Shown here in pieces: positions 2 to 9,648 of a DNA stretch of 11,234 nt (positions within the stretch are counted from its first letter, which is position 1; every line of letters starts with the position of its first letter). Both the position numbers and the translations under genes were made by a program. Location of the stretch: assembly GCA_023441125.1 (NCBI GenBank), contig JAEZQV010000302.1:1-11234 (forward strand). Direction: 5' to 3'. Under the pieces are notes generated by a model. The model did not search any database. It was not told the DNA's origin and was given only the letters and a program-made list of their open reading frames with translations. This stretch comes from Bacillota bacterium (GTDB taxonomy: Bacteria; Bacillota_C; Negativicutes; Sporomusales; Sporomusaceae).

Positions 2-496
2 CGCTACAGTGCCGGCGCACTTTTGAAAGCGGCCGGGGCCGAGCTGATTACCGGCTACGCCGGAGCTGCGCCGGACGAAGTGACGGCGTATGTGGCGAAA
101 GTCGAAGCAGATATTGATTATCTGCCGCAGACGCCAACCGAAGCCCGGATTGAGATTGCCATGGGCAAAGCGTGTGTCCGGCTCAGCGCAGACCGCCATG
201 TTGGCCAATTGGTCACTTATTTCACGCCAATGGGCACCAGTTATGTGCAAAACGGCAAAGACCTGACCAAGGTTACCACGGTAATTGGCACCGGCGGGGT
301 GATTGTCAATAATCCCGAACCGGAAGCCATTCTGGCCGGCATAGTGTTTGATGAAACCAACCCGCAGATCCTGAAACCGCAACACGCAGATTATTTGATT
401 GATAAAGATTACATTATGTCGGCCATGGGCCTTTTAGGTGAAGAATACCCGGAAGTGGCTGTACGCATGATGAGAAAATACATTGTTAAGAAATAG
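2..496 (+). CDS. glmL: Glutamate mutase reactivating factor GlmL/MutL, C-terminal part (5' end outside window)
   Basis: This is the last 164 codons of an ASKHA-type (actin/Hsp70-like) ATPase of the MutL/GlmL family. The family is known to reactivate adenosylcobalamin-dependent glutamate mutase by exchanging damaged cofactor. The reading frame stays open to the window edge and begins in RYSAGALLK, so the TTG at 23 is an internal codon and not the start. Family members are roughly 460 residues, so about the C-terminal third is present. Visible family-like segments are the glycine-rich VIGTGGVIVNN and the terminal IMSAMGLLGEEYPEVAVRMM. Assignment rests on this and on the glutamate mutase gene 26 bases downstream. 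The nucleotide-binding motifs of the N-terminal half cannot be checked here. A glmS gene (B12-binding sigma subunit) is expected further upstream by analogy with clostridial clusters. Confidence 0.9.
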   Translation, partial: RYSAGALLKAAGAELITGYAGAAPDEVTAYVAKVEADIDYLPQTPTEARIEIAMGKACVRLSADRHVGQLVTYFTPMGTSYVQNGKDLTKVTTVIGTGGVIVNNPEPEAILAGIVFDETNPQILKPQHADYLIDKDYIMSAMGLLGEEYPEVAVRMMRKYIVKK

Positions 497-522: not shown

Positions 523-1974
523 ATGGAACTTAAAAATAAAAAGTGGACTCATGACGAGTTTTATGCCATCCGCCAAGAAGTCCTGACTCATTGGCCGACC
601 GGTAAAGATGTAAACTTTGAAGAAGCCGTAAAATACCATGAAAATATTCCGGCTAAACGCCATTTTGCCAAACGGCTGGTCAAGGCTAAGAAAAACGGTG
701 AAACGCTGACTCAGCCCCGGGCCGGTGTTGCTCTTATTGACGAGCATATCAACCTTTTAAACTTCCTGAAAACCGAAGGTGAAGCCGACCTGCTGCCGAC
801 AACGATTGACAGCTATACGCGCCAGAATCAATATAAAGAAGCCCAAAACGGCATTGAAGAAAGCCTTAAAGCCGGCCGCTCCCTCCTTAATGGCTTCCCG
901 GCCGTTAATCACGGGGTAGCCGGCGTACGCCGGGTCGTTGAGAGCGTAGATGCGCCGCTGCAGGTGCGTCACGGTACCCCTGACGCCCGCCTGCTGGGGG
1001 AAATTACCATGGCTGCCGGTTATTCTTCCTACGAGGGCGGCGGTATTTCCTACAACATTCCCTACGCAAAAAGCGTTTCCTTGGAAAAAACCATTTATGA
1101 CTGGCAGTATTGCGACCGCATGATCGGCATCTACGCCGAGCATGGCATCGAAATTAACCGTGAGCCGTTTGGCCCGCTGACCGGTACGCTGGTACCGCCC
1201 AGTGTTTCCCATGCTGTCGCTGTAATTGAGGGGATCCTCGCCGCCGAACAAGGTGTTAAGAATATTACCTTAGGGTATGGCCAGTGCGGTAACCTGATTC
1301 AGGATATTGCCGCGATCAAGGCGCTGGAACAGCTGGCCGAAGAATATATGGTCAAGCATGGCTATAACGATTGCATTCTCACTACGGTGTTCCATCAGTG
1401 GATGGGCGGTTTCCCGCAAGATGAAGCCAAAGCCTTTGGCGTTATTTCCTGGGGTGCGGCGACAGCTGCGCTGGCAAAAGCCACCAAGGTCATTGTCAAG
1501 ACCCCGCACGAAGCACTGGGAATTCCCACGAAAGAGGCTAATGCCCAGGGCTTAAGAACAACCCGGCAAATGATCAACATGCTTAAGGATCAGGCCTTCC
1601 CGCTGACCAAAGAACTGGAAGCTGAAATTAACATTATTAAAGCTGAGACCCGCTGCATCCTGGATAAAGTATTTGAACTTGGCGGCAGTGACTACGCCAT
1701 TGGCTCAGTCCGCGCCTTTGAAGCCGGTGTGCTTGATGTGCCGTTTGCTCCCAGCAAATTCAGCCTGAATAAAATCCTGCCGGCCCGGGACAACAACGGG
1801 GCTGTCCGTCTGTTCGATGTAGGCAACCTGCCGTTTACGCCGGATCTCATTGCATTCCATAAAGACAAAATCGCGGAGCGCGCCAAGGCAGAAGGCCGCG
1901 AACCGAGTTTCCAGATGGTAATTGACGATATTTACGCCATCTCCAAAGGTAACCTGGTAGGACGTCCGCGCTAA
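523..1974 (+). CDS. glmE: Glutamate mutase epsilon subunit (methylaspartate mutase E)
   Basis: This is the catalytic subunit of adenosylcobalamin-dependent glutamate mutase, a cytoplasmic TIM-barrel enzyme that converts L-glutamate to (2S,3S)-3-methylaspartate with GlmS. The 483-residue length is standard. The residues known from Clostridium cochlearium GlmE occur at the same numbers: the substrate-binding arginine claw R66, R100 and R149, plus E171, Y177 and Y181 in the [11 protein letters not shown] segment. The long runs [20 protein letters not shown] and [20 protein letters not shown] are also typical of the family. The ATG at 523 is preceded by GAGGAGG at 506-512. It follows glmL by 26 bases and is followed by a 157-base gap with RNA-like structure before mal, the next pathway enzyme. 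All key residues are intact, so an active enzyme is expected if GlmS is encoded nearby. Confidence 0.98.
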
Positions 1975-2131: not shown

Positions 2132-3379
2132 ATGAAAATTGTTGATGTAGTTTGTTCCAAAGGACGTACCGGTTTTTATTTTGATGATCAACGGGCGATT
2201 AAGGCCGGCGCCGCCCATGACGGTTTTACCTATATCGGCCAGCCTATTACCGACGGGTTCAAAGCCGTGCGTCAGGCCGGGGAAGCCGTATCGGTCATGA
2301 TTATTCTGGAAGACGGCCAAATCGCCTATGGTGACTGCGCCGCCGTTCAGTACAGCGGTGCCGGCGGCCGGGACCCGCTGTTTTTGGCTGAAGACTTTAT
2401 TCCGGTTATTGAAAAAATGATCAAGCCCCGTCTGGTAGGCCGTGAACTTAATTCCTTCAAGCAGCTGGCCGAAGAAGTGGATCATCTCAGCGACGAAACC
2501 GGCAAACGCATTCATACCGCCCTGCGCTATGGCGTAACCCAGGCCATTTTAGACGCAGTGGCCAAAGCGAAAAAACAGCTGATGTGCGAAGTGATCGCCG
2601 CTGAATACAATACCCAGGTCAGCGAGCGTGAAATAGCCATCTTTACCCAATCAGGCGATGACCGTTATAATAATGTAGATAAGATGATTATCAAGCATGC
2701 GGAGGTGTTACCGCATGGCCTGATCAACAATGTTAAGGAGAAACTGGGCGAAAACGGCGAATTGCTGGTTGAATACGTGGGCTGGCTGCGGGAACGGGTA
2801 GCTAAACTCAAAACCACCGCCGACTATGCGCCGGTGCTGCATATTGACGTTTACGGCACCATTGGCCTGGCCTTCAACAATGACGTGGACCGCATCGTTG
2901 CATACTTCCGCCAGCTGGAAAAGGCAGCCGCGCCGCTTACGCTCCGTATTGAGGGCCCGGTAGATGTGGAAGACCGCGAGAAGCAGATTGAAGTACTGGC
3001 CGAAATTACGTCCCGCCTGCACCAAGAAAATATCAAGGTTGAAATTGTGGCCGACGAATGGTGCAATACCTTTGAAGATATCAAAGACTTTGCCGACAGA
3101 GGCGCCGGCGATATGCTGCAGATTAAAACGCCGGACCTGGGCGGTATCAATAATATTATTGAAGCCGTACTGTATTGCAAGCAAAAAGGGGTTGGCGCCT
3201 ATCAGGGCGGCACCTGCAACGAAACCAACCGTTCGGCTGAAGTGTGCGTCCATGTCGCCATGGCCACCCAGCCGGTGCAAATGCTGGCTAAACCAGGCAT
3301 GGGTGTGGACGAAGGCTACATGATTGTTTATAATGAAATGCAGCGTATTTTAGCAGTACGCAAAGCCCGTAAACATTAA
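2132..3379 (+). CDS. mal: Methylaspartate ammonia-lyase
   Basis: This enolase-superfamily enzyme removes ammonia from L-threo-3-methylaspartate to give mesaconate, the second step of the glutamate pathway. The 415-residue length fits the family (413 in Clostridium tetanomorphum). Catalytic residues described for that enzyme are present with a +1 offset: H195; the Mg ligands D239, E274 and D308; the base K332 in the LQIKTPDLGG segment; and T361-C362 in YQGGTCNE. The ATG at 2132 has AAGGAGA at 2117-2123. The gene follows glmE after a 157-base structured spacer and precedes an uncharacterised P-loop gene by 84 bases. No truncation or missing key residue is seen. Confidence 0.98.
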   Translation: MKIVDVVCSKGRTGFYFDDQRAIKAGAAHDGFTYIGQPITDGFKAVRQAGEAVSVMIILEDGQIAYGDCAAVQYSGAGGRDPLFLAEDFIPVIEKMIKPRLVGRELNSFKQLAEEVDHLSDETGKRIHTALRYGVTQAILDAVAKAKKQLMCEVIAAEYNTQVSEREIAIFTQSGDDRYNNVDKMIIKHAEVLPHGLINNVKEKLGENGELLVEYVGWLRERVAKLKTTADYAPVLHIDVYGTIGLAFNNDVDRIVAYFRQLEKAAAPLTLRIEGPVDVEDREKQIEVLAEITSRLHQENIKVEIVADEWCNTFEDIKDFADRGAGDMLQIKTPDLGGINNIIEAVLYCKQKGVGAYQGGTCNETNRSAEVCVHVAMATQPVQMLAKPGMGVDEGYMIVYNEMQRILAVRKARKH

Positions 3380-3463
3380 TTTGAACCTGACAGCAAGTCC
3401 TGGGTGCGTTTTTCGGAAGATCGCCGCTGGGCTTCATGGCAGGAGTCTAAGGAGGACCCGTTT

Positions 3464-4405
3464 ATGAAGTCGACCGTTACGCTTGGTCTTGGCGACCAGC
3501 TTATGTATTCCAGCTACTTTGCGCCGCGCGGGCGCAACCGGATGTATATTCTGGGGCAGCAGCTCAGCGAGCGCTACTTGTCGCCGCTGGACCGCCTGAT
3601 CGGCATTATCGGTGATGCCGGCGCCGGCAAGTCGTCCCTGGTGAAAGGCATGTTTCCCGGCCTGGAACTTACCAATGACGATGACGGCGTGAATATCAGG
3701 CCGCTGCCGCTCTTAAAGAATATTGACCGCGGCTTTTTTTCCAGCCATACCTATCATGTGGATATTCGGTTTGAACTGGCGTTTACGCAAATACATGTTT
3801 TGGCCGAAGCCGTCACCCAGGCGCTGGCTCATGGCAAACGGGTCATCGTTGAACATTTTGATCTGTTGTTTCCTTTACTCAAAACCAATGCCGATGTTCT
3901 CATCGGCGTTGGCGGCGAGGTCATTGTAGTGAGGCCGACGGTATTCGGTCCGGTGCCCCAGGAAATACGCGATGTTGTCGTCAGGACGCTGCAGTTCCGC
4001 AAAATGGCCCATACGGCCGAAGACCTTACCAACCGCATTCTGGTCAATGACTATGGCGCTATTTTGGAGTTTCGTCACCGCGATGTGCATCATGGCTTTG
4101 TGCTTGAATATCCGCTCGAATTGTCGGCGGAATTAAAAGATGTGGAGCGCAAGGTGAAGCGTCTCATCGACGACGGCGTCAACATCAGTTATTGCGACGA
4201 GGGCCATATTAAAATTGGCGATTTGAGCTGGGCCTGCTCGGGTCCCCGGACACATGTGCGCAATACCGAAGACATTGAAAATTTCCGGCTTATCCCGGAA
4301 TATAAATACGATCCCAAGACCCGTACCTATCTCATTATCGGGCTTGTCGGACCCAAGTCGGATACCCTTGACGGCTTTAACCTGTTAAATACCGTCAATT
4401 GTTAA
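3464..4405 (+). CDS. Uncharacterised P-loop protein with alanyl-tRNA synthetase second-additional-domain (SAD)-like C-terminus
   Basis: Function is unknown. The protein has 313 residues if it starts at the ATG at 3464, which has GGAGG at 3451-3455. An in-frame GTG at 3404 lacks such a site. The N-terminal half carries a Walker A motif, GDAGAGKS (residues 50-57), and a hydrophobic strand ending in an acid, RVIVEHFD (about 126-133), that could serve as Walker B. The C-terminal half resembles the AlaRS editing/SAD domain. It has HTAED (183-187) where AlaRS has HxxxH, a helix-rich segment around 220-236, then C258-x5-H264 followed by VRNTEDIENFRL, recalling CGGTHVxNT-x-EIGxF. One His is replaced by Asp, and the Cys-His spacing is two residues longer, so a metal site is possible but altered. 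It has no predicted signal peptide or obvious membrane segment. Its position between mal and citD suggests a role tied to the pathway. That role is an inference and could be regulatory, maturational or enzymatic. Confidence 0.75.
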   Translation: MKSTVTLGLGDQLMYSSYFAPRGRNRMYILGQQLSERYLSPLDRLIGIIGDAGAGKSSLVKGMFPGLELTNDDDGVNIRPLPLLKNIDRGFFSSHTYHVDIRFELAFTQIHVLAEAVTQALAHGKRVIVEHFDLLFPLLKTNADVLIGVGGEVIVVRPTVFGPVPQEIRDVVVRTLQFRKMAHTAEDLTNRILVNDYGAILEFRHRDVHHGFVLEYPLELSAELKDVERKVKRLIDDGVNISYCDEGHIKIGDLSWACSGPRTHVRNTEDIENFRLIPEYKYDPKTRTYLIIGLVGPKSDTLDGFNLLNTVNC

Positions 4406-4425: not shown

Positions 4426-4716
4426 ATGAATGAACTCAAACCGGCTCAGGCCGGCACGCTGGAATCGAACGATATTATGATCACTGTGGCGCCCGGCGCA
4501 AAAGGCAGCGGCGTCGTTCTTGAACTGGAAAGCATTGTGCTTGCTCAATACGGCCAGGCCATTAAGGCGACAATTGCCGCGGTCCTTGCCGGGCAAAATG
4601 TTACCGATATATATATTAAAGCGGTCGACAGAGGGGCGCTCGACTGCACCATTCAGGCCCGGACCCTGGCGGCTTTGGCCCGGGCCGGCATTATTCTCCG
4701 GGAGGAGCTGATCTAA
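4426..4716 (+). CDS. citD: Citrate/citramalate lyase acyl carrier protein (gamma subunit)
   Basis: This small acyl carrier protein of the citrate lyase complex has 96 residues, the usual family length. Its serine carries the 2'-(5''-triphosphoribosyl)-3'-dephospho-CoA group, which is acetylated in the active enzyme. The attachment serine is S14 in AGTLES, matching the position known in Klebsiella CitD. The region VVLELESIVLAQYGQAI and the end LARAGIILREELI are also family-like. The SD TAGGAGG (4414-4420) lies 5 bases before the ATG. The gene follows the P-loop gene by 20 bases, and its stop overlaps the citE start by one base (TAATG), indicating coupled translation. Because it sits behind glm and mal, the complex probably acts on citramalate. 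The sequence alone does not separate the two substrates. Confidence 0.95.
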   Translation: MNELKPAQAGTLESNDIMITVAPGAKGSGVVLELESIVLAQYGQAIKATIAAVLAGQNVTDIYIKAVDRGALDCTIQARTLAALARAGIILREELI

Positions 4717-5585
4717 TGGACTTACGCCGGACGATGTTGTTTATGCCGGGAAATAATCCGGGCATGTTGCAAAACGGCGGTGTGTTTGGCGCCGATGCGC
4801 TTATCCTTGATCTGGAAGATGCCGTTGCCCCCCAGGAAAAGGATGCCGCCCGTCTCCTGGTAGCCCAGGCGCTGAAAACAGTGGATTATGGTACAAGTGA
4901 AAAAGTGGTGCGCATTAATCCGCTGGACACGTTTGCCTGCCAGGATATTAAGGCCATTGTGCCCTGCCGCCCGGATGCGCTGCTGGTACCCAAAGTGGAG
5001 CGGCCGGAGGATATCGCCGAGGTAGCCCGCCAGGTTGCCGCTGCCGAGCAACCGGGGCAAACGCCTGTTAAACTTATTGCTTTGCTGGAAACTCCCGCCG
5101 GTATCGCCGAGTCATACCGGATTGCCAAGGCTGATGGCCGGGTGGTTGCGCTGGCGTTTGGCGCAGAAGACTATACCGCAGCGCTTGGTGCCAAACGGAC
5201 CAAAGAAGGCACTGAGATTTTCAGCGCCCGGACAACCGTGGTCAACAGCGCCGCCGCTGCCGGTATCCAGTCAGTCGATACCCCGTTTACCGATGTCAAT
5301 GACCGGGCGGGCCTGCTGGCCGATACCGAACTGGCCAAGCGGCTGGGGTTCAAGGGCAAATTATCGATAAATCCGCGTCAGCTTGACGACATACATAAGG
5401 TATTTAACCCTTCCAGCCAGGATATTGCGTGGGCGGCGCGGGTCATTAAAGCCATCCGTAAAGCGGAGGCCGAAGGCTCGGGCGTAGCTTCACTGGACGG
5501 TAAAATGGTCGATGCGCCGATTGTCGCCAGGGCGGAGCGCATCTTGTATCTGGCCCGCTTGCTGGGTCTGGCAGAGGAGGCTTAA
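4716..5585 (+). CDS. citE: Citrate/citramalate lyase beta subunit (CitE)
   Basis: CitE is the lyase subunit. It cleaves the (3S)-citryl- or citramalyl-ACP thioester to acetyl-ACP plus oxaloacetate or pyruvate. It belongs to the HpcH/HpaI aldolase/CitE TIM-barrel family and has the expected length (289 residues). Visible motifs are the N-terminal RRTMLFMPGNNPGML, DLEDAV (32-37), VVRINPLD with the substrate-binding arginine R67, ALLETPAGI with the metal-binding E125, and FGAEDYTA containing D152, the likely second metal ligand. The ATG overlaps the citD stop, with GGAGGAG at 4701-4707 inside citD as SD. citF starts one base after its stop. In this cluster citramalate to acetate plus pyruvate is the more likely reaction, which is inferred from neighbours. 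Confidence 0.96.
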   Translation: MDLRRTMLFMPGNNPGMLQNGGVFGADALILDLEDAVAPQEKDAARLLVAQALKTVDYGTSEKVVRINPLDTFACQDIKAIVPCRPDALLVPKVERPEDIAEVARQVAAAEQPGQTPVKLIALLETPAGIAESYRIAKADGRVVALAFGAEDYTAALGAKRTKEGTEIFSARTTVVNSAAAAGIQSVDTPFTDVNDRAGLLADTELAKRLGFKGKLSINPRQLDDIHKVFNPSSQDIAWAARVIKAIRKAEAEGSGVASLDGKMVDAPIVARAERILYLARLLGLAEEA

Positions 5586-5586
5586 C

Positions 5587-7134
5587 ATGAAGCAATTAAC
5601 AAATTCCCTGGGCCGCAGCCTGCCTGAATACATTGAAGGATATGGACAGGTAAGGCCTTTTGGCGGCGCATTTGCCACCGCGCCCGCTATGCTGCGCCAG
5701 GCTCCGGGGGTTAAACGGATTTTACCCGGTGAACAAAAACTGGTGGCAGATTTGGCAACCGTGTTTAAACGCATTCCAGTCTCCGACGGCATGACCTTGT
5801 CGTTTCATCATCATTTACGCAATGGTGACGATGTTGTCAATATGGTACTGGCGGTTGCCGCCAAACTGGGCATAAAAGATCTCACCGTGGCCTTAAGCTC
5901 GGTGTTTCCGGTGCATGCCCCCCTGGTGGAGCATGTAAAAGCCGGTGTGGTAACCGGGCTCGACACCAACTATATGTCCGGGCCGGTGGCGGAAGCCGTG
6001 TCGCACGGCGTATTTCCCAAACCGGTTGTGCTGAGAACTCACGGCGGCCGGGCCAGGGCGATCGAGTGCGGCCAGTTGAAGATCGATGTTGCCTTTATTG
6101 CCGCGCCAACAGCCGACGATTACGGCAACCTGAACGGTGTGGACGGTCCGGCGGCCTGCGGCTCGCTGGGATATGCCATACCGGACGCGCAATATGCCCA
6201 GCATGTAGTGGCTATTACCGATCACCTGGTGCCGTATCCGCTTTCACCCATATCGATCCCCCAGACCAGGGTGGACTATATTGTTAAAGTGGACTCCATT
6301 GGCGATCCAAAGGGTATTGTCTCTGGTACAACCAAGATAACCCGCGATCCCGTCGGGCTAAAAATTGCCGAAATCACAGCCAAGACCATTCAGGCGGCCG
6401 GCCTTATTAAAGACGGCTTCTCTTTCCAGACCGGGGCCGGCGGCGCATCTTTGGCTGCGGCCCACTACGTCCGGCAGATGATGGCCGAGGCCGGCGTTGC
6501 CGGCAGCTTTGCGCTAGGCGGCATCACCGGCTATATGGTGGAAATGCTGGAAGCCGGGCTGTTTAAAAAGCTGATTGACGTGCAGGGGTTTGACCTGGAG
6601 GCTGTGCGTTCGCTGGCTGCCAACCCCAATCACCTGGAGGTGGGTGCCGACTTCTATGCCAGCCCCTTTAATCTGGGTGCAGCCGTCAATAAACTGGATG
6701 TAGTGGTATTGGGCGCTACTGAAATTGATACCGATTTTAATGTGAATGTCGTTACCGGCTCAAGCGGGGTGATTATGGGCGGTTCGGGCGGCCACAGTGA
6801 TGCGGCTGCCGGCGCTAAGGTTACCATTGTAGTAGCCAATCTGCTGCGCGGCCGGCTGCCGATTATCATGGATAAGGTTCTCACGGCCACCACTCCGGGC
6901 GAGACGGTGGATGTGCTGGTAACCGAACGGGGCGTGGCTGTCAATCCGCGCCGGACCGACTTATATGAGCAATTCAAGGCGGCGGGATTGCCGCTTAAGA
7001 GTGTGGCCGAGTTAAAAGAACTGGCTGAAAAGATAGCCGGTGTGCCGGCGAGGATCACGACCCAGGACAAGATTGTCGCGGTCGTTGAATATCGTGACGG
7101 CACCGTGATTGATGTGGTAAGGCAGGTAGGATAG
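5587..7134 (+). CDS. citF: Citrate/citramalate lyase alpha subunit (acyl-CoA/ACP transferase, CitF)
   Basis: CitF is the transferase subunit. It exchanges acetate on the acyl carrier CitD for the incoming hydroxy acid (citrate or citramalate), making the thioester that CitE cleaves. The preferred start is the ATG at 5587 (MKQLTNSLGRSLPEY), with GAGGAGG at 5574-5580. An earlier in-frame ATG at 5512 lies inside citE and would overlap it needlessly. This gives 515 residues, the normal family size. Recognisable segments are PFGGAFATAPAM near residue 25, LSFHHHLRNGDDVVNMV, SFQTGAGGASLA in the middle and MGGSGGHSDAAAGAKVTIV towards the C-terminus, all typical of citrate lyase alpha chains. A 124-base gap with a long hairpin follows before citC. 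Confidence 0.96.
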   Translation: MKQLTNSLGRSLPEYIEGYGQVRPFGGAFATAPAMLRQAPGVKRILPGEQKLVADLATVFKRIPVSDGMTLSFHHHLRNGDDVVNMVLAVAAKLGIKDLTVALSSVFPVHAPLVEHVKAGVVTGLDTNYMSGPVAEAVSHGVFPKPVVLRTHGGRARAIECGQLKIDVAFIAAPTADDYGNLNGVDGPAACGSLGYAIPDAQYAQHVVAITDHLVPYPLSPISIPQTRVDYIVKVDSIGDPKGIVSGTTKITRDPVGLKIAEITAKTIQAAGLIKDGFSFQTGAGGASLAAAHYVRQMMAEAGVAGSFALGGITGYMVEMLEAGLFKKLIDVQGFDLEAVRSLAANPNHLEVGADFYASPFNLGAAVNKLDVVVLGATEIDTDFNVNVVTGSSGVIMGGSGGHSDAAAGAKVTIVVANLLRGRLPIIMDKVLTATTPGETVDVLVTERGVAVNPRRTDLYEQFKAAGLPLKSVAELKELAEKIAGVPARITTQDKIVAVVEYRDGTVIDVVRQVG

Positions 7135-7141
7135 ACGAAAT

Positions 7142-7224
7142 AAGAGATTGTTCACCGCCGGTTACTGTAGATTCACAGGGGATGCCCCTTTGTGCCTGCG
7201 GCTACCGCGTGACAATCTCTTTTT
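7142..7224 (+). terminator. Long imperfect hairpin with T-tract between citF and citC (possible attenuator or partial terminator)
   Basis: Bases 7142-7151 pair perfectly with 7212-7221, and 7153-7155 continue with 7209-7211. After small bulges, 7160-7162 pair with 7204-7206, 7165-7170 pair with 7196-7201 (two G-U), and the tip CACAGGGG (7174-7181) pairs with CCCC and TGTG (7185-7188, 7191-7194). The result is an almost continuous 80-base rod. It ends in a T-run, 7220-7224, which fits a plus-strand intrinsic terminator. The base of the stem is A/T-rich, so termination may be only partial, setting citC below citDEF. It could instead be a mobile palindromic repeat or a stability element. Confidence 0.5.
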
Positions 7225-7258
7225 ACAATCAGTATCGGCGTAAACAGGAGGCATGGGT

Positions 7259-8305
7259 ATGTGGGGCAACTATGAAATAAGAGAGATCAATCTGGACAGC
7301 AGCCGGGAAGTGGCGGCTGTCAGGCAGTTTCTCGCCGGCTTCGAGCTGACTTTTGACGGGGCTGTTGACTATACCGTAGCCTTTTATCAGGCTGAGGAGA
7401 TCATCGCCACCGGTTCGCTGGCCGGCGAAGTGTTGCGCAATATTGCCGTTTCGCCCCGCTTGCAGGGGGAAGGGCTGACGGCCAATGTGGTCAGTCAGCT
7501 TATGCAGCAGGCTGGCCAGCGCGGTATTTACCATTATTTTATTTACACAAAACCCACCGCCGCCCCCATGTTTACCGCCCTGGGCTTCAGGGAAATCGCC
7601 CGGGCCGAACCCCATGCCGTTCTCCTGGAAGCCGGCCTTGGTTCGATTGAGGAATATTGCCGGGAAATAGCCGGGCAGGCCGGAGTGCTGCCACCAGGGC
7701 CAAGAGCGGCCCTGGTGGTTAACTGCAACCCTTTTACGTTGGGGCACAAAGCCGTCATTGCCAAAGCCAGTGCTGAAAACGCGGCGGTTGTGGTGCTGGT
7801 TGTCAGTGAGGAACGGTCCCTGTTTCCGTTTGCGGTGCGCATTCGGCTTGTGCGCCAGGGGCTGGCGGAATTTAAAAACCTGCTGATCCTGCCGGCCGGG
7901 AAGTATATTATCTCCACCGCCACCTTTCCAGCCTACTTTACCAAGGGCGAGGCCGCTATTCAGGCGCAGACGCAGCTTGACGCCGGTATTTTTGCCCGCT
8001 ATATTGCCCCCGCGCTTGGCATTAACCGCCGCTATGTCGGTGAAGAGCCTTATTGCGCCACGACCTTAAAGTATAATGAAGCATTGGCTGAAATACTGCC
8101 CCCGCATGGCATTGCTTTGGAAGTTATGCCGCGTCTGGCGGTGAACGGCCAGATTATCAGTGCTTCGCAGGTACGGGAATTCATTCGCCAGGATAACTGG
8201 GAAGCTGTAAAGGCGCTGGTTCCGCCAACCACCTACCAGTACCTCTGTTCGTCGGCAGCAGAGCCGGTAATTGCCAGCATCAAGGCCAGTGCTTCCCGGC
8301 ATTAG
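7259..8305 (+). CDS. citC: [Citrate (pro-3S)-lyase] ligase (acetate:ACP ligase, CitC)
   Basis: CitC uses ATP and acetate to acetylate the thiol of the prosthetic group on CitD, switching the lyase complex on. Domain order matches the family: an N-terminal acetyltransferase-like (GNAT) fold with NIAVSPRLQGEGL (61-73), then a nucleotidyltransferase domain with NCNPFTLGH (155-163, the HxGH-type signature) and ISASQVR (300-306). The ATG at 7259 lies 7 bases after AGGAGG (7246-7251) and is preferred. The in-frame ATG at 7253 lies only one base from it. This gives 348 residues. citC more often precedes citD, but here it follows citF after a hairpin-bearing gap. The prosthetic-group genes citX and citG are not in the window. 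Confidence 0.95.
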   Translation: MWGNYEIREINLDSSREVAAVRQFLAGFELTFDGAVDYTVAFYQAEEIIATGSLAGEVLRNIAVSPRLQGEGLTANVVSQLMQQAGQRGIYHYFIYTKPTAAPMFTALGFREIARAEPHAVLLEAGLGSIEEYCREIAGQAGVLPPGPRAALVVNCNPFTLGHKAVIAKASAENAAVVVLVVSEERSLFPFAVRIRLVRQGLAEFKNLLILPAGKYIISTATFPAYFTKGEAAIQAQTQLDAGIFARYIAPALGINRRYVGEEPYCATTLKYNEALAEILPPHGIALEVMPRLAVNGQIISASQVREFIRQDNWEAVKALVPPTTYQYLCSSAAEPVIASIKASASRH

Positions 8306-8373
8306 CAGCTGACAAGCTGTAGCAGGTATTTCTGACGCGCCGGCGTAGCATATAAAGGGCGTAATCGGCTTAC

Positions 8374-8402
8374 TCTATTAGGTAGCAAGTGCAACTAATA
8401 GA
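8374..8402 (+). promoter_or_regulatory. Small hairpin just upstream of the malic enzyme SD
   Basis: TCTATTAG at 8374-8381 is the exact reverse complement of CTAATAGA at 8395-8402, giving an 8-bp stem with a 13-base loop. It ends four bases before the AGGGGG (8406-8411) that serves the malic enzyme start, so it could modulate ribosome access or mark a processed 5' end. The stem is A/T-rich and modest, and chance cannot be excluded. The rest of the citC-malic enzyme gap (8306-8418) shows only a weak 5-bp hairpin at 8306-8319 and no convincing promoter. Confidence 0.35.
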
Positions 8403-8418
8403 TCTAGGGGGATATAGC

Positions 8419-9648
8419 ATGGATATACGTGAAGCAGCTTTGAAACTACATCGGGATCATCAGGGAAAACTGGCGGTAGCCGCGAAAGTTCCGTTATCGT
8501 CCCGCCATGACCTGAGTTTGGCCTATACACCCGGCGTTGCCGAGCCATGCAAAGATATCAAGCATAACAAAGACTTATCCTTCGAACTGACCTGCCGGGG
8601 CAACATGATTGCCGTCGTATCCGACGGTACCCGCGTGCTGGGCCTCGGCGATATCGGCCCGGAAGCCGCCATGCCGGTAATGGAAGGAAAAGCCGCGCTG
8701 TTTAAGGTGTTTGGTGACGTCGATGCCGTACCTATTTGCCTGGATACCAAAGAGCCTGACAAAATCATTGAAACCGTCAAATTGCTGCAGCCTACCTTTG
8801 CCGGTATCAATTTGGAGGATTTCTCTTCCCCCAAGTGCTATGATATTGAAGATGCCCTGAAAGAACAAATGGCTATTCCGGTCTTCCATGATGATCAGCA
8901 CGGTACCGCGATCGCTGCCGTGTCGGCGCTTCTCGGCGCCCTGCGGTTTGTAAAAAAAGAGCTGGCGGCTGCGAAAATTATTGTCAATGGGGTGGGGGCT
9001 GCCGGCACGGCCATTGGCCGCCTGCTGGTCAGCGCCGGCGCGAAAAATGTAATTATGGCAGATGTCCATGGTGCCCTGTACAAAGGACTGCCGGGGCTGA
9101 ACCGGATACAGACCGAACTGGCCAAGGTCACCAATCTTACCAAGCTGGAAGGAGATCTGGCCTTTGTCGCCAAATATGCCGACGCGTTAATCGGGGTATC
9201 GGCCCCCGGCGCGTTTACCAAAGAAATGATTAAAAATATGAACCCGGATCCAATCATTATTGCCATGGCCAATCCTGTGCCGGAAATAAGCTATGAAGAA
9301 GCCAAGGCCGCAGGGGCCCGGGTAGCCGGAACAGGGCGTTCGGATGCGCCTAATCAGGTTAATAACGTAACTGTATTTCCCGGATTGTTCCGGGGGGCCC
9401 TGGACGTTAGGGCCCGCCAAATTAATGAAGCAATGAAGCTTGCCGCTGTGTATGCGATCGCCAATCTGATTCCGGAGAGCGAACTTAAAGAAGACCACGT
9501 GGTTCCCGATGTCTTTGACCCCAGAGTGGCGCCGGCCGTGGCGGCCGCTGTGGCCAAGGCGGCCATGGAGACCGGTGTGGCCCGGATTAAGGTCGACCCG
9601 GAGGAAATCAGGCGAAAAACGGCTGAACGGGTGGCTCGCAATCGCTAG
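8419..9648 (+). CDS. Malic enzyme (malate dehydrogenase, oxaloacetate-decarboxylating), probably NAD-dependent
   Basis: This cytoplasmic enzyme oxidatively decarboxylates L-malate to pyruvate and CO2 with reduction of NAD(P). The ATG at 8419 (MDIREAALKLHRDHQGK) is preceded by AGGGGG at 8406-8411. An in-frame GTG at 8389 lies in the hairpin loop and lacks an SD. The 409-residue length is that of the short bacterial malic enzymes without a phosphotransacetylase domain. Catalytic Y36 (LAYTPGVAEPCK) and K91 (MEGKAALF), metal ligands E133-D134 (NLEDF) and D158-D159 (FHDDQHGT), and the Rossmann motif GVGAAG (191-196) are visible. D215 after the second strand hints at NAD preference. It is followed 11 bases later by the class I hydro-lyase genes. 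It may link pyruvate from citramalate cleavage to malate and fumarate. Confidence 0.94.
   Translation: MDIREAALKLHRDHQGKLAVAAKVPLSSRHDLSLAYTPGVAEPCKDIKHNKDLSFELTCRGNMIAVVSDGTRVLGLGDIGPEAAMPVMEGKAALFKVFGDVDAVPICLDTKEPDKIIETVKLLQPTFAGINLEDFSSPKCYDIEDALKEQMAIPVFHDDQHGTAIAAVSALLGALRFVKKELAAAKIIVNGVGAAGTAIGRLLVSAGAKNVIMADVHGALYKGLPGLNRIQTELAKVTNLTKLEGDLAFVAKYADALIGVSAPGAFTKEMIKNMNPDPIIIAMANPVPEISYEEAKAAGARVAGTGRSDAPNQVNNVTVFPGLFRGALDVRARQINEAMKLAAVYAIANLIPESELKEDHVVPDVFDPRVAPAVAAAVAKAAMETGVARIKVDPEEIRRKTAERVARNR

Follow-up and report, generated by a model that had tools for sequence, protein, structure and literature searches.

A predicted fusion of a TsaE-like ATPase with an AlaX-type SAD domain co-occurs with the GlmE family of glutamate mutase

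The gene at positions 3464 to 4405 of the DNA analysed here (a stretch of 11,234 nucleotides, called the window) raises the question of what a protein combining an ATPase-type lobe with a tRNA-editing-type lobe does among genes of glutamate catabolism. For its 313-aa product we use the working name SADP; L-numbers and G-numbers denote loci and genomes of this analysis, respectively. The ORF lies on the forward strand and starts with an ATG, which was preferred over a GTG at 3404 because a Shine-Dalgarno-like AGGAGG is present at 3450-3455.

Operon and family

The initial annotation had placed the gene between methylaspartate ammonia-lyase and citrate-type lyase genes, and the profile matches agree with this. 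The gene order in the window is as follows, the Shine-Dalgarno-like sequence being included:

2..496, + strand, 3' part of GlmL/MutL, truncated by the window edge (PF13941, NF040745)
523..1974, + strand, GlmE, glutamate mutase epsilon subunit (TIGR01503, 795.5 bits; solved relatives 6h9e and 1cb7)
2132..3379, + strand, methylaspartate ammonia-lyase (TIGR01502, 609 bits)
3450..3455, + strand, AGGAGG, Shine-Dalgarno-like, read from the sequence, 8 bases 5' of the ATG
3464..4405, + strand, SADP, predicted fusion of a TsaE-like ATPase and an AlaX-type SAD domain (AF2 model, structure comparison)
4426..4716, + strand, CitD-type acyl carrier protein (profile matches)
4716..5585, + strand, CitE-type lyase beta subunit (TIGR01588, 313.8 bits, below the cut-off of 443.4)
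5587..7134, + strand, CitF-type lyase alpha subunit (profile matches)
7253..8305, + strand, CitC, lyase ligase (TIGR00124, 291.4 bits, cut-off 262.1)

A malic enzyme is encoded downstream of CitC, as are two putative fumarase-type subunits, named by their similarity to other loci. The CitE-type subunit presumably belongs to a citramalate lyase, its role in the pathway being likewise presumed. In the excerpt cited, the 3-methylaspartate pathway of glutamate fermentation comprises glutamate mutase, methylaspartase, mesaconase and citramalate lyase (PMC8473912), and the operon in the window is that of this pathway. A promoter scan of the window gave one match against 1.3 expected, and six terminator-like sites were seen against 2.0 expected, none of which was used.

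The SADP family comprised 3548 proteins at E <= 1e-3, of which the best 120 were inspected; the nearest named relatives among the matches listed were from Sporomusa, at 92% identity. Many of the best 120 of 3548 bear the NCBI name 'alanine-tRNA synthetase second additional domain-containing protein', which denotes the same family and carries no function, and other members are recorded as lantibiotic ABC transporter, TsaE, GTPase SAR1 or alanyl-tRNA editing protein. Every Pfam and NCBIfam match to the SADP of the window stayed under threshold. The family is known as a name without a function: in the open-access literature of PubMed Central, no study was found of this conserved neighbour of glutamate mutase, a classic B12 enzyme. 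Both folds are already known; their combination and the link to GlmE are undescribed in the open-access literature found.

ATPase lobe and SAD lobe

The AF2 model used here was built on 100 sequences and replaced an earlier one from 28 sequences, for which one of five models was confident (81.2 vs 57.5-61.6). Conservation was read from 314 SADP sequences, a redundant set of database matches and locus copies. The features of the two lobes are:

3497..3952, + strand, TsaE-like ATPase lobe, about residues 12-163 (AF2 model, structure comparison)
3611..3634, + strand, Walker A motif GDAGAGKS, residues 50-57 (K56 and S57 in 314/314)
3665..3688, + strand, ELTNDDDG, residues 68-75, hallmark stretch that follows the P-loop (D73 in 314/314)
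3755..3775, + strand, HVDIRFE, residues 98-104, aligned with HxDxYR of TsaE (hhalign; H98, D100 and E104 in 314/314)
3851..3856, + strand, E130-H131 (both in 314/314)
3983..4363, + strand, SAD (tRNA-editing-type) lobe, about residues 174-300 (AF2 model, structure comparison)
4010..4024, + strand, HTAED, residues 183-187, with putative metal ligands H183 and D187 at the HxxxH position (motif, conservation, hhalign)
4235..4255, + strand, CSGPRTH, residues 258-264, with putative metal ligands C258 and H264 (motif, conservation, hhalign)

The Walker A motif that the initial annotation had pointed out spans G50 to S57, and the ATP-binding module it had proposed is present and can be refined to a specifically TsaE-like lobe, the TsaE fold having been found in the predicted structure. 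By hhalign, the SADP family matched the TsaE profile with an E-value of 1.2e-5 and a probability of 81%, whereas eight reversed or shuffled controls gave E-values of 0.2-0.63; all these E-values are those of single comparisons, with templates built from few sequences. A profile scan matched TsaE in 22 of 28 SADP members, and the SADP of the window itself scored under the curated cut-offs (14.0 bits against 26.6 for Pfam, 16.1 against 60.1 for TIGR00150). With TsaE (YjeE), the t6A tRNA modification ATPase, SADP has in common the fold, at residues 13-163, the Walker A motif, the HxD, in which D100 aligns with the D of HxDxYR, and an acidic residue read as Mg-binding; it differs in its TsaE scores, its SAD lobe and the extra NDDD segment, ELTNDDDG being nearly invariant across the family. 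In TsaE, Mg is bound by Glu108, with Trp109 and Tyr82 acting as switch residues, according to the cited part of PMC4330362. E130 may, with low confidence, be the counterpart of Glu108, a column reached only through an alignment forced past residue 101. As a separate TsaE scored over cut-off in all seven genomes checked, SADP is not the t6A TsaE of its genome.

The SAD fold expected at residues 180-290 appears in the model at about residues 174-300. The landmarks read from the sequence earlier are there as well, HTAED being followed by C-x5-H and, directly after it, VRNTEDIENF (residues 265-274), with the ligands kept in at least 309 of 314 sequences. H183, E186, C258 and H264 are each present in 313 of 314, the remaining row being a gap, and D187 in 309 of 314 (N in three, E in one, a gap in one); R262 is found in 311 of 313 sequences and R179 is invariant in the 100-sequence alignment. 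By hhalign, the family matched the AlaRS SAD (E-value 1.2e-4, probability 55%), the ThrRS SAD (7e-7, 92%) and two AlaX-type SAD profiles (1.8e-5 and 3.9e-6, 78% and 87%). Conservation and these matches, compared with the controls, argue that the SAD-like order of landmarks is not due to chance. PF07973 scored 15.9 bits on the SADP of the window, under the cut-off of 24, and 21.4 on the best SADP across six genomes, and NCBIfam AlaXM weakly matched 11 of 28 members (best E 0.00079).

SADP resembles the AlaX, AlaRS and ThrRS editing domain in the fold of residues ~174-300 and in how the four ligand positions are ordered, but in a column-by-column alignment HxxxD and Cx5H replace HxxxH and CxxxH, and the scores stay under the Pfam cut-off. 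AlaX carries an N-terminal domain, and in its place SADP has the ATPase lobe. In E. coli AlaRS, HXXH-type (printed so) and CXXXH motifs are thought to hold zinc, as stated in the section cited (PMC8857464). Judged from the alignment, the metal site of SADP is altered and then held by selection, not decaying, and the description of the domain as 'degenerate' was therefore abandoned. Because the altered site is held by selection, loss of function cannot be read from it, and the altered zinc ligands do not serve as the argument against deacylation that they had been taken for. The net charge of the SAD lobe (median -7 over 314 SADP sequences) did not decide on tRNA binding either: comparable segments carry 0 to +6 in five AlaRS, -1 to -8 in six ThrRS and +3, -2 and -5 in three AlaX-type proteins, so that all six ThrRS and two of the three AlaX-type segments are also negative. 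Foldseek also matched PLP enzymes over the whole length, with carbon-sulfoxide lyase ranked 3-5 (E 2.5e-4), ahead of AlaX, and SufS among the others; the rmsd was 12.6-16.7, and these matches were read as spurious.

An AlaX-like protein of Pelosinus (L114, G001) has HFAAE at the HxxxH position, which is another changed ligand set.

Gene neighbourhoods and tree

The context of the best 80 of 445 homologue loci was searched by tblastn within the fetched flanks, some of which were short. GlmE was found in 50 of these 80 loci, GlmS in 49, ammonia-lyase in 49, GlmL in 45, the FumA type in 41, CitF in 39, GntR in 32, AtuA in 16 and RNase PH in 15. In 42 kept loci the flank reached 8 kb or more on either side, and 34 of these had GlmE; the eight without it were L030, L054, L056, L057, L064, L067, L071 and L078, and GlmE lay elsewhere in all seven of their genomes that were searched (those of all but L064). 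GlmE was present somewhere in the genome in 20 of 20 genomes checked. The linkage to a glutamate operon is thus borne out, the homologues not lying mostly away from glm/mal genes.

Of the 15 RNase PH matches in the 80 loci, 14 are 0.9-1.5 kb downstream of SADP and one is 8 kb off. Here glm genes would have invaded what looks like a housekeeping cluster (amidase, GerM-type, MurI, rph). The tree of SADP, made by a quick method from 88 sequences (L002 and L086 being too short for inclusion), in which several branches are long or weakly supported, splits broadly into rph-side and glm-side groups, whose forks have support values of 83 and 81. Both contexts occur in five rows (L029, L031, L033, L036 and L045), which fall on the rph side, and 46 of the 88 rows have a glm context without rph. 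The tree, taken as unrooted, suits an old glm link with later loss of mutase genes.

Some loci show peculiarities of their own. L100 (G136) has tandem SADP genes (7174-8079 and 8190-9089) before RNase PH, its glm operon being on another contig. An AtuA-type/DUF4387 gene pair is found in L034 (8259-9942) and 15 other loci, mostly between ammonia-lyase and SADP; these loci are without CitF in the fetched flank, and the pair is possibly an alternative next pathway step. In L091 (8756-14397, G099) the ammonia-lyase gene is split by two copies of a two-gene insertion, which from the look of its proteins we take to be IS21-like. The apparent 1372-aa ORF of the Merdimmobilis hominis GlmE (L062, 5779-9897) was rejected as a run of N with a repeated edge, i.e., an assembly gap; no tandem repeat was found at this GlmE, and because of the gap the absence of GlmS and MutL in this genome (G005) was not used.

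Co-occurrence with GlmE across genomes

Two samples were searched, one of 249 genomes from one phylum and one of 82 genomes from the class of G003. They overlap (e.g., G023, G143, G174 and G250) and, with genomes related by descent, the counts are not independent; Fisher values computed from them are to be taken as descriptive. In the first sample, SADP was found in 52 and the GlmE family in 62 of the 249 genomes, and all 52 SADP genomes had GlmE, in five of them under the curated cut-off (G041, G072, G085, G124 and G262). The 52 were taken from 55 genomes matched, after exclusion of G036 and G064 (25 and 21 bits) and the broken G025 (47 bits), and include partial copies in G088, G111 and G190; the 62 were taken from 64, after exclusion of G075 and G202 (19 and 20 bits). 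The SADP rows of G002, G030, G110, G148 and G262 were flagged as having stops inside, and those of G002 (L025) and G262 (L085) are full ORFs. Ten of the 52 SADP-GlmE pairs were split between contigs or separated by over 10 kb.

Ten of the 62 GlmE carriers had no SADP. GlmE with neither SADP nor a GlmS over cut-off was seen in G058, G100, G101 and G135. The full set of GlmS, MutL, GlmE and ammonia-lyase occurred without SADP in six genomes (G044, G099, G152, G220, G232 and G246), so the mutase does not need SADP everywhere, and SADP is not required wherever glutamate mutase occurs.

In the second sample, GlmE was found in 35 of 38 SADP genomes, and six genomes had GlmE only; here G301 (20 bits) was excluded, the 38 include the broken G288, and G316, G317 and G323, out of 41 GlmE genomes, are below cut-off. 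Since only two of the 35 pairs lay within 10 kb (12 were on different contigs), co-occurrence is not explained by adjacency alone. The three SADP genomes without a GlmE match were G288, with a broken SADP, and G292 and G293, with an apparently intact one; their contig numbers (C424, C65 and C486) point to fragmented assemblies. SADP in broken pieces was seen in G025 (contig C12) and G288 (contig C424), neither with a GlmE match. SADP thus occurs nearly always with GlmE and GlmE sometimes without SADP, which is the pattern expected of an accessory.

None of the other candidates, be it an active mutase, GlmL, the ammonia-lyase or citramalate lyase, is linked to SADP as tightly as the GlmE family. 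Among the 52 SADP genomes of the first sample, ammonia-lyase scored over cut-off in 44, MutL in 46 (counting G230, which has only a fragment) and GlmS in 43. Accordingly, three other partners were rejected: GlmL/MutL, which was considered by comparison with TsaE and its ASKHA partner TsaD and discarded as a general rule, is missing over cut-off in 6 of 52 SADP genomes, methylaspartate ammonia-lyase in 8 of 52, and CitF, for citramalate lyase, was found in 39 of 80 loci.

SADP in genomes without a detected mutase

In G041, G085, G124 and G262 (L081 and L083-L085), SADP forms a group next to RNase PH with GntR and with a divergent GlmE, here called GlmE2; RdgB is also at the site in L083 and L084. 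No GlmS, MutL or ammonia-lyase scored over cut-off in these four genomes. The GlmE2 proteins are encoded at:

L081, 9314-10618
L083, 8291-9508
L084, 6815-8113
L085, 1428-2945

The substrate-binding residues of glutamate mutase are R66, R100, R149 and E171, according to the excerpt cited (PMC10947579). In all four GlmE2 proteins R149 is replaced by E or Q and E171 by R or Q, and none retains K322, K326 or E330. R66 and R100, each retained in two of four, lie in a poorly aligned region, as the profile match starts near residue 116 (L084). Because GlmE2 is without these residues, SADP is unlikely to serve glutamate mutase chemistry in L081 and L083-L085. The pN/pS ratio was 0.34-0.45 for GlmE2 (three pairs) and 0.20-0.22 for SADP (two pairs), with synonymous sites near saturation; by this measure GlmE2 is under purifying selection. 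The SADP of L081 keeps the P-loop, HTAED and Cx5H, and those of L083-L085 are among the 314 conservation rows. In L087 and L088, again with no GlmS over cut-off, the GlmE paralogues keep most of these residues.

In Natranaerofaba carboxydovora (G111; L086, 10493-10990), SADP consists of the ATPase lobe only, with 165 aa (157 on record) and the motifs GDPKIGKS, NDDE, HMD and EHFD. It ends 90 bases before the RNase PH frame and therefore has no SAD lobe. One further protein is 89% identical to it and of the same length. This genome has a GlmE paralogue and no GlmS or ammonia-lyase over cut-off. The ATPase lobe can therefore outlive the SAD lobe, as seen in a single lineage.

Possible function

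SADP is probably a helper of glutamate mutase rather than an ordinary tRNA-editing protein. More specifically, it may be a dedicated TsaE-like, ATP-driven accessory of the GlmE family, a reading that we favour tentatively. The proposed mechanism draws on TsaE, which reactivates TsaDB through ATP hydrolysis, as stated in the cited part of PMC11648230. By analogy, the TsaE-like lobe would bind and hydrolyse ATP, cycling on and off a GlmE-type TIM barrel and changing its state, as TsaE does with TsaDB. The SAD lobe, with its putative metal site (H183, D187, C258 and H264) and with R179 and R262 close in sequence, would bind or hydrolyse an acidic amino-acid or aminoacyl ligand and thereby tie the ATPase to the substrate state. 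In this scheme we infer that the two proteins touch, that SADP is an active ATPase and binds a metal, and what its ligand and its effect are.

In favour of such an accessory are the established parts, namely the two folds, as predicted, the conserved sites and the observed co-occurrence with GlmE, together with the profile matches with their controls, the poorer fit of the other partners, the broken SADP of G025 and G288, both without a GlmE match, and the lone ATPase lobe. Against it stand the six full-set genomes without SADP, GlmE2 without the key residues, and G292 and G293; the analogy also has to bridge the difference between GlmE, a TIM barrel, and TsaD, the TsaE partner, which is an ASKHA protein. 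Maturation of the mutase was the best of the roles suggested initially, but with GlmE paralogues that have lost the substrate site it would not be simple maturation. As for known systems, GlmL/MutL and MeaB/MMAA are helpers or presumed helpers of B12 mutases and, like SADP, known or presumed NTPases whose genes lie next to that of such a mutase; GlmL is a different protein, encoded in the window together with SADP, and MeaB is a G3E GTPase. Less likely is the wider proposal that SADP founds a new class, in which a fused TsaE-AlaX protein acts as an ATP-driven helper binding the GlmE TIM barrel, and several lineages would have lost the mutase and the substrate-binding residues and kept the SADP-GlmE pair (with GntR) for a new regulatory or quality-control task.

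It is also possible, though on the doubtful side, that SADP is an ATP-gated trans-editing deacylase which removes acidic non-protein amino acids wrongly attached to tRNA, chiefly the 3-methylaspartate made by glutamate mutase, and so protects translation during glutamate fermentation. The AlaX/AlaRS/ThrRS fold with four conserved ligand positions and the weak AlaXM matches speak for this, R179 and R262, invariant or near-invariant, would suit an acidic side chain, and the operon in the window makes 3-methylaspartate. However, SADP also occurs in genomes where GlmS is missing over cut-off and 3-methylaspartate is presumably not made by this route, six genomes with the full set do without SADP, and one lineage kept the ATPase lobe and not the SAD lobe; the acidic SAD lobe, compared with AlaRS, also speaks against it, a weak point, as the ThrRS and two of the three AlaX-type segments are negative too. 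Trans-editing accounts better for the SAD lobe than the accessory reading does, and worse for the mutase-less genomes. A further reading, distinctly unlikely in our view, is a regulatory complex with GlmE or its substrate-site-less paralogue as binding scaffold, SADP as sensor of both nucleotide and ligand, and the GntR-type protein encoded nearby as output. For it, GntR, GlmE2 and SADP stand together in L081, L083, L084 and L085 without GlmS, MutL and ammonia-lyase, GlmE2 is under purifying selection by its pN/pS, and GntR was found in 32 of 80 homologue loci. Against it, GntR was not found in the other 48, some of them short, and none was seen in L029, L031, L033 and L036.

General tRNA or nucleotide quality control tied to rph-rdgB, with the glm link as an accident of gene order, would agree with the RNase PH neighbours and with the tRNA-related relatives of both folds. 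A tRNA role was nevertheless not deduced from these neighbours, as their site looks like a conserved housekeeping locus, apparently with inserted glm genes; the tree rows with glm and no rph, the five rows with both, and the fact that SADP rarely lacks GlmE, also where their genes lie at a distance, make such a role hardly probable. Similarly improbable is a small-molecule kinase, with the NDDD segment as substrate binder, comparable to uridine kinases, and the SAD lobe limited to ligand binding. The near-invariance of ELTNDDDG and weak kinase-family matches in 5 and 4 of 28 members are in line with it, but TsaE, an ATPase, fits better both by sequence (22/28 members) and by fold. A uridine-kinase-type protein with a ThrRS-like part does exist, a TGS/uridine-kinase-type protein of Petroclostridium (L137, 793-2574), and the joining of a P-loop and a SAD-like region in one protein, correctly recognised in the initial annotation, is also seen there, outside the SADP family. 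Unlike SADP, this protein has the opposite domain order and a PRK/uridine-kinase P-loop (PF00485); its TGS domain scored 20.3 bits against 22.2, and its SAD part is under the Pfam threshold (12.4 bits), with no CGGTH-like motif seen by eye.

If SADP is a helper of the GlmE family, it would be a TsaE-type ATPase serving a metabolic enzyme, of which we know no earlier case, and a tRNA-editing fold would have been re-used outside translation or in a new corner of it. The GlmE paralogues without the B12 subunit raise a second question. Such paralogues, from genomes without GlmS over cut-off, are encoded in L087 (9323-10774), L090 (7608-9059), L092 (4666-6114) and L094 (8838-10280), where they adjoin a glutamate racemase-type gene (a Pfam assignment for L087 only). 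The same loci carry a 2-hydroxyacyl-CoA dehydratase-like subunit and activase of the HgdB/HgdC type, and raise the question of whether the GlmE barrel works there without B12.
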